Positions 1,559 through 59,766 of a stretch of DNA of 64,000 nt are shown piece by piece. How positions within the stretch are numbered: the stretch's first letter is position 1; each line of letters opens with the position of its first letter. Made by a program: the position numbers and the translations under genes. The DNA lies in NCBI RefSeq assembly GCF_025398035.1, contig NZ_CP104558.1, positions 2,356,001 to 2,420,000 of the forward strand. The letters are read 5' to 3'. Source of the stretch: Rossellomorea vietnamensis. Its GTDB lineage: Bacteria > Bacillota > Bacilli > Bacillales > Bacillaceae_B. A model generated the notes under the pieces. It had not been told where the DNA came from, ran no database searches, and worked only from the letters and a program-made list of their open reading frames with translations.

Positions 1559-1792
1559 ATGAAACTGACAAAATGGGGCTACACCCGCTTCAACAGCATA
1601 AAAGCAGAATTCGACCACTTCCCCCACTCCCTCGTCATCCTGAGGAAAATCAGAAACTACTACTTCATCAACAAAATCCACTGGTCCCACCTCGACCCCG
1701 TCGTCGAAACCCATCACCTAGAACAAATGGAACTGCTGGTGAACAGGGAAATGGATCTGGAGGAGAATTACCTTAATAGGAGATTGGATTAA
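1559..1792 (+). CDS. Small hypothetical protein, 77 aa
   Basis: Not recognised. The predicted protein is rich in aromatic and charged residues, has no membrane segment or cysteine, and ends in an acidic-basic tail. The ATG at 1559 is preceded by AGGTGAT with 5 bases of spacing, a convincing ribosome binding site, and the palindromic operator-like site lies about 70 bases upstream. An overlapping frame from 1549 to 1776 is proline- and arginine-rich and looks like a shadow. Real expression is plausible rather than proven. Confidence 0.45.
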   Translation: MKLTKWGYTRFNSIKAEFDHFPHSLVILRKIRNYYFINKIHWSHLDPVVETHHLEQMELLVNREMDLEENYLNRRLD

Positions 1793-2056: not shown

Positions 2057-2267
2057 GGTCTCCGTTATATTGAATTTACTCTTTAGGACTAATAAAATTT
2101 TTTAAAAAACAAGAAAAAATGAGATAAACCAAGATAACCGCCCATTTCAATTCAAAAACCACCCAAAATCGCACTATATTGATTATTCTGAACATTTGCA
2201 TTAATTTTATAATTTGTTAATATATAATTAATAAATGATTTACAAAACAATCTTTAAAGGAAGGCGT

Positions 2268-2367
2268 GATTCCAATGAAGTGAGTTAGCAAAGCATGTCA
2301 GCATCACATCTCGCTTTTGAGATCGGCCCGTGAAAACTGATTTCAAGATGTGTGGATATGCGGGAAT
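2268..2367 (+). ncRNA. Structured RNA candidate, tandem copy 1
   Basis: First of two tandem modules 122 bases apart. It begins with GATTCCAATGAAG and folds by eye into a long arm: GCATGTC (2293) with GATATGC (2355), CACATCT (2305) with AGATGTG (2346), GAGATCGG (2319) with CTGATTTC (2337), capped by loop CCCGTGAAAA (2327-2336). ATTCC and GGAAT can close the module. The AT-rich stretch upstream (about 2196-2228) holds TTGCAT and TATAAT-like hexamers at poor spacing. The family is not recognised and the strand is inferred from the fold. Confidence 0.5.
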
Positions 2368-2389
2368 GCGCAATCTTATTTCAGGAGAT

Positions 2390-2489
2390 GATTCCAATGA
2401 AGAATGTAAGCGAAGCATGCTAACATCATGGTACGCAAGAAGATAGCCCGTGAAAACTATCTTCGTAACATGTGGGCGTGTGGGAAAAT
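2390..2489 (+). ncRNA. Structured RNA candidate, tandem copy 2
   Basis: The second module repeats GATTCCAATGAAG, AGC-AAGCATG and the loop CCCGTGAAAA (2447-2456). The stem under the loop is GAAGATAG (2439) with CTATCTTC (2457), different in sequence from copy 1 but perfectly paired. This is compensatory change between paralogous modules. GCATGC and GCGTGT make the lower stem with two G-U pairs. No open frame with a ribosome binding site runs through it. A hairpin at 2614 could end the transcript. Confidence 0.5.
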
Positions 2490-2613
2490 CAGCGGCAAAT
2501 GAAAATAAACTAATAAACCATGCAAGACCATTAATTTAATGTTAAATGAATGTTACGTATGTGTATTAGTAAGAAAGGATAGTAAAGTTAATTGAATAAG
2601 ATTTACTTAAGTT

Positions 2614-2652
2614 AAGGCGCTGTTTATGTGGTATAGGCATAAGCAGCGTCTT
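2614..2652. terminator. Hairpin terminator candidate
   Basis: AAGGCGCTG-T-TTATG pairs with CATAA-G-CAGCGTCTT, a 15-bp stem with two G-U pairs and a 9-base loop. On the plus strand it is followed by TTAAATTTGT, and on the minus strand by TTAACTTAAG, so the T-runs are weak. It lies just past the stop of the minus-strand acetyltransferase and also after the tandem RNA candidate, so it may serve both. Confidence 0.5.
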
Positions 2653-2662
2653 AAATTTGTGT

Positions 2663-3208
2663 TCAATATTCATCTTTTAATAAAGAGCAGACAGCCGCAT
2701 CACAAAAAACGCCTTTTTCAAATGCCGCTTTTCTCAATACGCCTTCAAATGTAAATCCTGCTTTTTCGAGGCTCCTCTTCGATGCCACATTTTCCGGATC
2801 GTAATACGCTTCAATACGATTAAGATTCATTTCTTCAAAGCCGTATCTCAGGACCGGCTGTAATACTTCTGTGATGACCCCTTGCCTCCAATAGGATGGA
2901 TGAACCTCAAACCCCACCTCGGCTTTAAAATGTTCTTTCTCCCATTGATGAAACCCGCAGCTGCCGATGATGTCGCCGGATTCTTTCAGGGCAATCCCCC
3001 AACGGATCCCTTCATTCAGATAAAACCTTTCGTTCCACTTCTCGATGATCTCCAGTGCCTGTTTTTCCTCTTGAAACGATTCCAGATCATAATATCGGGT
3101 GACTTCATCTTTTGAGAAATAATCAAAAACACGGGGAGCATCCCCTTCTTTCATCTGTCTTAAGCGAAATCTATCTGTTTCAAATGCCGGAAAGGTTCGT
3201 GTCAACAT
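2663..3208 (-). CDS. GNAT acetyltransferase, RimJ/RimL type
   Basis: A 181-residue acetyltransferase of the GNAT fold that transfers acetyl from acetyl-CoA to an amine, in RimJ/RimL enzymes the N-terminus of a ribosomal protein. The N-terminal ETDRFRLRQ strand, the HPSYWRQGVITEVL acetyl-CoA loop (central third) and NVASKRSLEKAGF near the C-terminus are typical. The second methionine at 3208 is chosen because AGGAG sits 7 bases before it, while the ATG at 3214 is only one base from that site. The gene stands alone. The substrate is unknown. Confidence 0.85.
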   Translation of the reverse strand: MLTRTFPAFETDRFRLRQMKEGDAPRVFDYFSKDEVTRYYDLESFQEEKQALEIIEKWNERFYLNEGIRWGIALKESGDIIGSCGFHQWEKEHFKAEVGFEVHPSYWRQGVITEVLQPVLRYGFEEMNLNRIEAYYDPENVASKRSLEKAGFTFEGVLRKAAFEKGVFCDAAVCSLLKDEY

Positions 3209-3362
3209 TTTCATTCTCCTTTTCTTCTTGTTCTCCTTATGTATTCAACATGGGATTTTCCAATGCCTTCTTATAAGAGTAAATTTTTATTAATTCACCG
3301 TTTGTGTTCTTTCCTTCATCTGGTTACAATCGATGTAATAGATGAAAAAGGATGGGGATGAC

Positions 3363-59524: not shown

Positions 59525-59766
59525 CTAATATTGAATAAGCTTTGAAGGAAACTAGTAGCGGACATTTCCCTGTTTAAGAGAGCCGGTGGTTGGTGTGAAC
59601 CGGTACATAGATGAAGCGAATTTCGATTCCGGAGCTTCTTTTGACGAGATCAAAAGACGGGTAAGACCGTTATGTGTGAAGAGTGATGAGAAACATTTTC
59701 TCATAACTAGGGTGGTACCGCGATATTCAAATCGTCCCTACGATATGTAGGGGCGATTTTTTTATT
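59525..59766 (+). promoter_or_regulatory. T-box riboswitch upstream of the sodium symporter
   Basis: Stem I begins near AAGCTTTGAAGGAA, has an AGTA box and the AGAGAGCCGGTGGTTGG distal bulge. The lower stem pairs AAGCTT-AGGAA with TTCC-AGCTT. The specifier region GCGAATTTCGATTCC places UUC (Phe) at 59622-59624; UUU one base earlier also codes for Phe. The T-box AGGGTGGTACCGCG is at 59709-59722, and the terminator AATCGTCCCTAC/GTAGGGGCGATT with T7 ends at 59766. Confidence 0.9.

Follow-up and report, generated by a model that had tools for sequence, protein, structure and literature searches.

The lambda bar minigenes are two-codon minigenes, tandem riboswitches consist of tandem paralogous structured domains, and in type III toxin-antitoxin systems the antitoxin is a repeat RNA. 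For two-codon minigenes, bound ribosomes have been proposed to protect the leader RNA, according to the portion of the study available to us (PMC8708949), and the accessible part of another report lists 27 intergenic small RNAs in a Paenibacillus (PMC5670726). The locus described here lies in a 64,000-nt stretch of DNA (below, the window) from the 4.52-Mb single-contig genome of Rossellomorea vietnamensis. A preliminary description of the window had pointed out two similar modules, 122 nt apart, at positions 2268-2489, and rechecking of the coordinates placed them where they had been reported. The modules share GATTCCAATGAAG (2268-2280 and 2390-2402) and AAGCATG (2291-2297 and 2413-2419) and carry the same loop, CCCGTGAAAA, on 8-bp stems (P4) that differ in sequence and keep their pairing (Table 1). 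The element overruns this span, reaching from approximately 2195 to 2660. Conservation among the Rossellomorea loci extends over a block at ~2100-2660 and drops on both flanks in the more divergent loci. From its sequence, the pair of modules looks like part of a putative freestanding RNA gene of ~430 nt; the 436-nt RNA deduced folds 4.8 SD below shuffles (z -4.8). The earlier notion of a structured small RNA held up. The preliminary description had overlooked that the modules contain ribosome-binding sites and micro-ORFs, and had not noticed the 3' third of the RNA.

Table 1. Predicted features of the element (window coordinates)
Feature	Position	Strand	Basis or detail
Promoter-like region	2186..2223	+	Alignment of 28 Rossellomorea loci; conservation and own reading
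Conserved box TTCTGAAC	2186-2193	+	5' part of promoter-like region
Putative -35, TTTGCA	2195-2200	+	17-nt spacer to -10
Putative -10, TAATAT	2218-2223	+	Alignment of Rossellomorea loci
Inferred transcript, ~430 nt	2230..2660	+	Conserved block ~2100-2660; fold z -4.8; ends inferred
Shine-Dalgarno of module 1, AAAGGAAGG	2256..2264	+	Sequence; anti-SD duplex statistics, 74 modules
Module 1 (covariance-model hit)	2265..2366	+	P2 2293-2299/2355-2361; P4 2319-2326/2337-2344; loop 2327-2336
Micro-ORF 1, ATG AAG TGA	2275..2283	+	Sequence; comparative tests
Shine-Dalgarno of module 2, AGGAG	2383..2387	+	Sequence; anti-SD duplex statistics
Module 2 (covariance-model hit)	2387..2486	+	P2 2415-2421/2475-2481; P4 2439-2446/2457-2464; loop 2447-2456
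Micro-ORF 2, ATG..TAA, MKNVSEAC, 8 codons	2397..2423	+	Stop at end of P2 5' arm
Conserved Shine-Dalgarno-like AGAAAGGA	2572..2579	+	Precedes terminal micro-ORF; alignment, duplex statistics
Terminal micro-ORF, TTG start, 7 codons, TAA	2592..2615	+	Stop at base of terminator-like hairpin
Terminator-like hairpin, 18 pairs	2612..2654	+	Terminator scan (1 found vs 0.2 expected)

As far as can be judged from sequence, the element has a promoter and a terminator of its own, as a freestanding small RNA gene should. Alkaliphile relatives carry GAATATTTACA-N17-TAATAT, or a similar arrangement, at the position of the promoter. The promoter call rests on conservation and on our reading of the alignment, because a generic promoter scan did not pick the sequence at 2195-2223 at the window locus and an automatic pick across the relatives chose another site there. 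A strongly kept box (TTCTGAAYATTT / GAATATTTACA) lies over the -35 element at 2184-2200 of the window and at many relative loci, and could be the site of a regulator; the CodY-like core, which we take to be TTCWGAA, was set against this box by eye only. A conserved linker with GTATTAGTAAGAAAGGAT separates the modules from the terminator-like hairpin. The U run that follows this hairpin is weak in the window and clearer in Fictibacillus and the alkaliphiles. In four Paenibacillus loci (L110, L118, L128 and L131), the interval between the last module and the terminator holds a second conserved stretch, approximately CCATATGC..GACATGG ... CCATGTCAGGGATATGG, of which a shorter relative, ATGCAAGAC or similar, is found in Bacillaceae. 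Separately, a dyad-symmetric repeat element occupies positions ~1930-2045 of the window; a 35-mer at 2006-2040 has 17 genomic copies, of which 14 are exact and the other 3 differ at three positions, and sequence similar to the repeat stands immediately upstream of the RNA at L010 and L019.

A long module consists of an outer stem, P2 (of the GCAUGYY...RRCAUGC type), a stem P3, and an apical stem, P4, with its loop. The case for structure is made by covariation, which is seen in P2, P3 and P4; folded one at a time, the modules are unremarkable (z -1.6 and -0.5). Covariation had been taken as a sign of RNA structure in the preliminary description, and pairing indeed exceeded that of shuffles in alignments of 30 and of 74 modules. 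Among the 30 Rossellomorea modules, standard pairs occupied 98.7% of cells (88.3% in shuffles), 12 of the 25 pairs had changed on both sides, and versions of the structure slid along the alignment paired in 31-51%. Among 74 modules from several genera, in an alignment that leans towards structure through having been fitted to the covariance model, 96.1% of cells paired, compared to 77.8% in shuffles, and two-sided changes were seen in 340 cells, compared to 94, affecting 20 of the 25 pairs. A further pairing, P1, between UUCC before the start codon and GGRA after P2, could form in 91.9% of cells in the 74 modules, with no two-sided change, and is therefore a possible but unproven helix. A pseudoknot pairing CCC of the loop with GGG was rejected by eye, as the loop bases vary with no matching change. 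The loop, called invariant in the preliminary description and identical indeed in the two window modules, varies in the relatives, following approximately G[CT]CNGTGAAAAC with GTGACAGC and GTGATAAC variants.

Conserved homologues in sister genomes, on which the preliminary description had made its proposal hinge, are plentiful. A covariance-model search of the relatives yielded matches in Rossellomorea and several other genera of Bacilli. The first model (R1) detected the element, always as a pair of modules, in 28 of 36 Rossellomorea genomes; the other eight, two of which are less than 90% complete or more than 5% contaminated, gave no convincing match (best at most 19.5 bits, judged to be chance after inspection of the motifs). 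Across the order, the same model matched 45 of the 397 genomes at E ≤0.1, the weakest of these matches possibly being due to chance. In the class, a second model (R2) matched 21 of 398 genomes; in the phylum it matched 4 of 299, all four belonging to the class. It also matched 50 of 100 genomes of a genus that we take from its near-identical modules to be Paenibacillus. A search for the exact pattern in genomes of named species returned 55 stretches, of which two were dropped as chance matches (L113, with no model hit, and L150, at 19.6 bits). The genera represented are Rossellomorea, Fictibacillus, Metabacillus, Paenibacillus, Saccharibacillus, Salipaludibacillus, Halalkalibacter, Alkalihalobacillus and Caldalkalibacillus, together with several Bacillus-labelled records and one Peribacillus-labelled record. 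The last of these, labelled Peribacillus frigoritolerans F-D2, has flanking proteins ~96% identical to those of Metabacillus idriensis (comparison of L109 and L147) and is possibly mislabelled. No match was found among plasmids and phages by blastn, nor among viral contigs with two exact patterns. Loci contain from one to four clear modules, the highest number occurring in Paenibacillus dauci, Saccharibacillus and three further genomes; Saccharibacillus shows in addition a fifth, weak module match (15.6 bits). The alkaliphile genera mostly have a single short module of ~57 nt that lacks P3 and P4, and one genome (L095) has three short modules.

In the modules, a purine-rich Shine-Dalgarno (SD) sequence is followed by GATTCC, or a variant of it, and then by NTG. 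In the 74 hits with E ≤0.001, which come from 39 loci and were counted by alignment columns, the start codon is ATG in 69, TTG in 3, GTG in 2 and CTG in none; weaker hits (e.g., L095:1782, L095:1901 and L145:5690) lie outside these counts. Duplexes with the presumed 16S tail had a median of -11.35 kcal/mol at the 74 modules, compared to -3.6 kcal/mol for 740 background windows from the same modules and -8.2 kcal/mol for the window's own long ORFs (first ATG, n = 46). Read in frame, 25 of the 74 modules reach their first stop after 2 codons and 35 after 8 or 9. The remaining 14 depart from this pattern, with 4 codons (one module), 10 codons (one) or 12-18 codons (twelve). An SD sequence, a start and a stop within a few codons are the hallmarks of minigenes and uORFs, and 62 of the 74 modules end within 10 codons. 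Early stops (codon 3 or 4) and late stops (codon 9 or 10) tend to exclude one another: 22 modules have only the early one, 35 only the late one, 3 have both and 14 neither (Fisher p 1.2e-6, uncorrected for relatedness, the related sequences not being independent). Module 1 of Fictibacillus illustrates the exchange: in some species codon 3 is CAA and codon 9 is TAA, and in others it is the other way round (L097 and L098 against L120 and L123). Twelve distinct modules have one extra nucleotide before AGC, which breaks the frame; each of them reaches a stop by codon 5. The other two frames also have stops 10-11 nt after the start, in 31 and 26 of the 74 modules; these arise from the conserved AGC motif, so that stop density by itself is not frame-specific. 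Of the 25 stops at codon 3, 18 are TAG, an apparent bias.

The 3' end of the RNA shows a similar arrangement. In 27 of 31 loci, the 31 spanning nine named genera, two Bacillus-labelled records and further genomes, an SD sequence and a start codon open an ORF of exactly seven codons just before the terminator, its end falling between -3 and +8 nt relative to where the terminator starts; dinucleotide shuffles satisfied the same rule in 1.0% of cases on average. As the range and length were chosen post hoc, four of the terminators were placed manually and the loci share ancestry, the comparison of 27/31 with 1% is descriptive and gives no clean p-value. The ORFs of the other four loci have 6, 6, 8 and 9 codons. 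The start codon varies by clade: Rossellomorea, Paenibacillus and Saccharibacillus use TTG, Metabacillus and Fictibacillus use GTG, and the alkaliphiles use ATG. Two Paenibacillus loci (L110 and L118) have another in-frame ATG immediately after the SD sequence, three codons ahead of this start; initiation there would extend the ORF to 10 codons. The peptides have no sequence in common (e.g., LNKIYLS, VNMFDSR and MLEESIV). Length and place of the terminal ORF are kept and its sequence is not, which points to the position of a ribosome and not to a peptide.

What comparison of the relatives demonstrates, at the level of predicted features, is an architecture of covarying stems, SD-start combinations, short in-frame stops and a mostly seven-codon terminal ORF at the hairpin; from it we infer how the RNA may be translated, expressed and stabilised, and what its target and physiological role may be. 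Our preferred reading, held with about equal measures of belief and doubt, is that the element constitutes a gene of its own for a structured RNA of Bacilli, as opposed to the leader of a neighbouring gene, and that this RNA works by the docking of ribosomes on micro-ORFs beside hairpins. Counted from the first nucleotide of the start codon, P2 begins after 18-19 nt and, for the terminal ORF, the terminator begins after 17-29 nt; such distances put the hairpin at about the leading edge of an initiating ribosome. Ribosomes would dock on each module, start, and finish within a few codons next to the hairpin. On a two-codon module, the ribosome would stop in front of P2, before the stem must open; on an eight-codon module, whose ORF ends at the end of the P2 5' arm, it would have to open P2. 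In the most probable mechanism, the RNA would work through ribosome occupancy: cycling ribosomes would make no useful protein, would protect the RNA from decay, and would flip the modules between P2-closed and P2-open states. The micro-ORF peptides are an unlikely product, because their sequences are not conserved. The RNA would then act in trans as a regulator that titrates ribosomes or senses translation; here we infer beyond precedent, since the two-codon minigenes of PMC8708949 act in cis only, in the portion of that article available to us. That we are dealing with an RNA class built on ribosome docking, defined by an SD sequence, a start, a 2- or 8-codon ORF, a hairpin at the leading edge and a 7-codon ORF at the terminator, is a tentative proposal in which doubt prevails. 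An RNA of this class would, in trans and with no protein encoded, titrate ribosomes (or initiation and termination factors) or sense the translational state; were ribosomes to dock as proposed, the soaking up or sensing of translation would fall to RNA alone.

The RNA might instead be a small RNA that base-pairs in trans with mRNAs, through the accessible apical loop (GUGAAAAC) or the linker, its SD-like sites and micro-ORFs serving only to attract ribosomes or 30S subunits for stabilisation, in the manner of STAB-SD sequences. A gene that stands alone between a promoter-like sequence and a terminator-like hairpin fits such a function, as does conservation of the loop core, and a strong SD sequence can stabilise Bacillus RNAs without translation, as stated in the accessible part of PMC3997798. 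However, the loop does not belong to the core of the element, because short-module loci lack the P3/P4 hairpin and loop and still retain the SD-start-AGCGAA-P2 sequence; and STAB-SD action pure and simple requires neither stop codons nor a length of seven codons. We regard base-pairing as unlikely to be the basis of the RNA's function.

Binding of a protein or a metabolite offers a second alternative, decidedly unlikely in our opinion, under which the modules would be aptamers or would sequester, for instance, a GGA-binding protein, their resemblance to SD sequences being incidental. Tandem modules with one conserved core, and the many GGA and GGGA stretches, are in keeping with this. So is the conservation of AGCGAA and of the loop GTGA beyond the needs of an ORF: AGCGAA is preserved even where the module's ORF has stopped before reaching it, so that part of the constraint is not translation, a point against our preferred reading. 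But ligand binding leaves unexplained the ATG, GTG or TTG at SD spacing, the exchange of stops between codons 3 and 9, and the 7-codon ORFs, and no aptamer of Rfam matches the element. Rfam 15, applied to the whole window at the gathering cut-off, gave a single hit, a full-length T-box leader at 59533-59742 (+ strand; 150.9 bits). When hits with E up to 10 were admitted for positions 2100-2700, five were obtained, all far below gathering (best E 1.9); one of these sub-gathering hits, HgcG at 9.5 bits, overlaps module 1. At 13 relative loci, Rfam found only cspA and SAM, both outside the element.

A third possibility, which we rate as very improbable, is that the element is a cis-acting leader, either a tandem riboswitch or a ribosome-sensing attenuator, controlling read-through to the next gene. 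Its tandem domains and the micro-ORF abutting an intrinsic terminator do bring attenuation to mind. When neighbours were tallied at 30 loci with a simple ORF caller (ORFs of at least 70 codons), the nearest downstream ORF was on the same strand in 13, as a leader would require, but on the opposite strand in 17, and no same-strand downstream gene recurred across genera. Nor did the element take up, at these 30 loci, the leader position upstream of a regulated gene typical of minigenes and uORFs, or lie upstream and on the strand of consistent genes as tandem riboswitches do. In the window, the next same-strand gene begins ~850 nt past module 2, the distance given in the preliminary description, and lies beyond a convergent GNAT gene. 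With no gene consistently found after the element, a tandem riboswitch is not favoured. The promoter-like and terminator-like ends, the covariation and the homologues in Bacilli agree with the preference of the preliminary description for a small RNA, an assignment that is well supported, on sequence-level grounds.

Flanking genes are held in common within the Metabacillus group, between two Salipaludibacillus, and between Alkalihalobacillus and one further genome, sharing being confined to clades apart from weak similarities. The ORF upstream of the element in P. dauci weakly resembles the upstream ORF in Saccharibacillus (34% over 92 aa); on the downstream side, two Fictibacillus are weakly alike over short stretches (49% over 49 aa), and both also resemble one further genome there (33-38% over 42-43 aa). 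Of the 28 Rossellomorea loci, 25 retain one or more of the window neighbours, but none of the four neighbours tested matched at L028-L030. Both at the 30 loci and at these three Rossellomorea loci, the element is conserved independently of its neighbours, as expected of a freestanding small RNA. The 77-aa ORF at 1559-1792 (+ strand) has no Pfam match and adjoins the RNA in 24 of the 28 Rossellomorea loci. The GNAT acetyltransferase gene (2663-3214, - strand) was not found in L023 and L024, where an amidohydrolase gene closely follows the RNA.

Finally, a gene for very short bioactive peptides of 7-8 residues, suggested by the conserved ORF length and the recurrence of MxxVSEAY/C in modules, is scarcely credible in view of the dissimilar terminal peptides, the many modules encoding only M-x, and the lack of significant peptide-level selection on Val at codon 4 (40 of 45 translated modules, compared to 19 of 26 others; p 0.11).

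The RNA family appears to be new. The open-access literature searched, including the available portions of PMC11109978, PMC8632094, PMC6429828, PMC8708949, PMC3997798 and PMC5670726, contained nothing like the element; it adds a family absent from Rfam 15 and spread over relatives in Bacillaceae and Paenibacillaceae, and an otherwise noncoding RNA organised around repeated ribosome-binding sites and fixed tiny ORFs is without precedent in the literature searched. Unlike a type III toxin-antitoxin system, in which a toxin gene lies directly downstream, it has no recurrent same-strand downstream gene at the 30 loci. It resembles tandem riboswitches in its tandem paralogous structured domains and differs from them in having no consistently associated downstream gene. 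With uORFC-6-1, a uORF motif of Bacillales, it shares a structured RNA embedding a short ORF; the part of PMC8632094 available to us describes uORFC-6-1 as associated in cis with hflX, mainly upstream of that gene, whereas the element has no consistent gene association. Like SR1/SR1P of Bacillus subtilis, it is a freestanding small RNA with an ORF; SR1, in the accessible text of PMC8501984, encodes one small protein with a partner, while the element has several micro-ORFs and no conserved peptide. Indeed, the conserved functional peptide expected of a dual-function small RNA was not found among the clades, which differ in their terminal peptides, nor in the Val residue (see above). STAB-SD sequences and 5' stabilisers of Bacillus mRNAs (cryIIIA and gsiB) have in common with the element a strong SD sequence near the 5' end and, as proposed here, protection of RNA, and the portion of PMC3997798 at hand describes for them no micro-ORF length constraint or conserved module such as the element has. 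The axe-txe mg2 minigenes come close in design, being likewise made of an SD sequence, a start, one further codon and a stop; the available part of PMC8708949, however, places the axe-txe minigenes in a leader, with action in cis, whereas those of the element are repeated, structured and freestanding. In kind, the element is a combination of freestanding small RNAs and minigenes.
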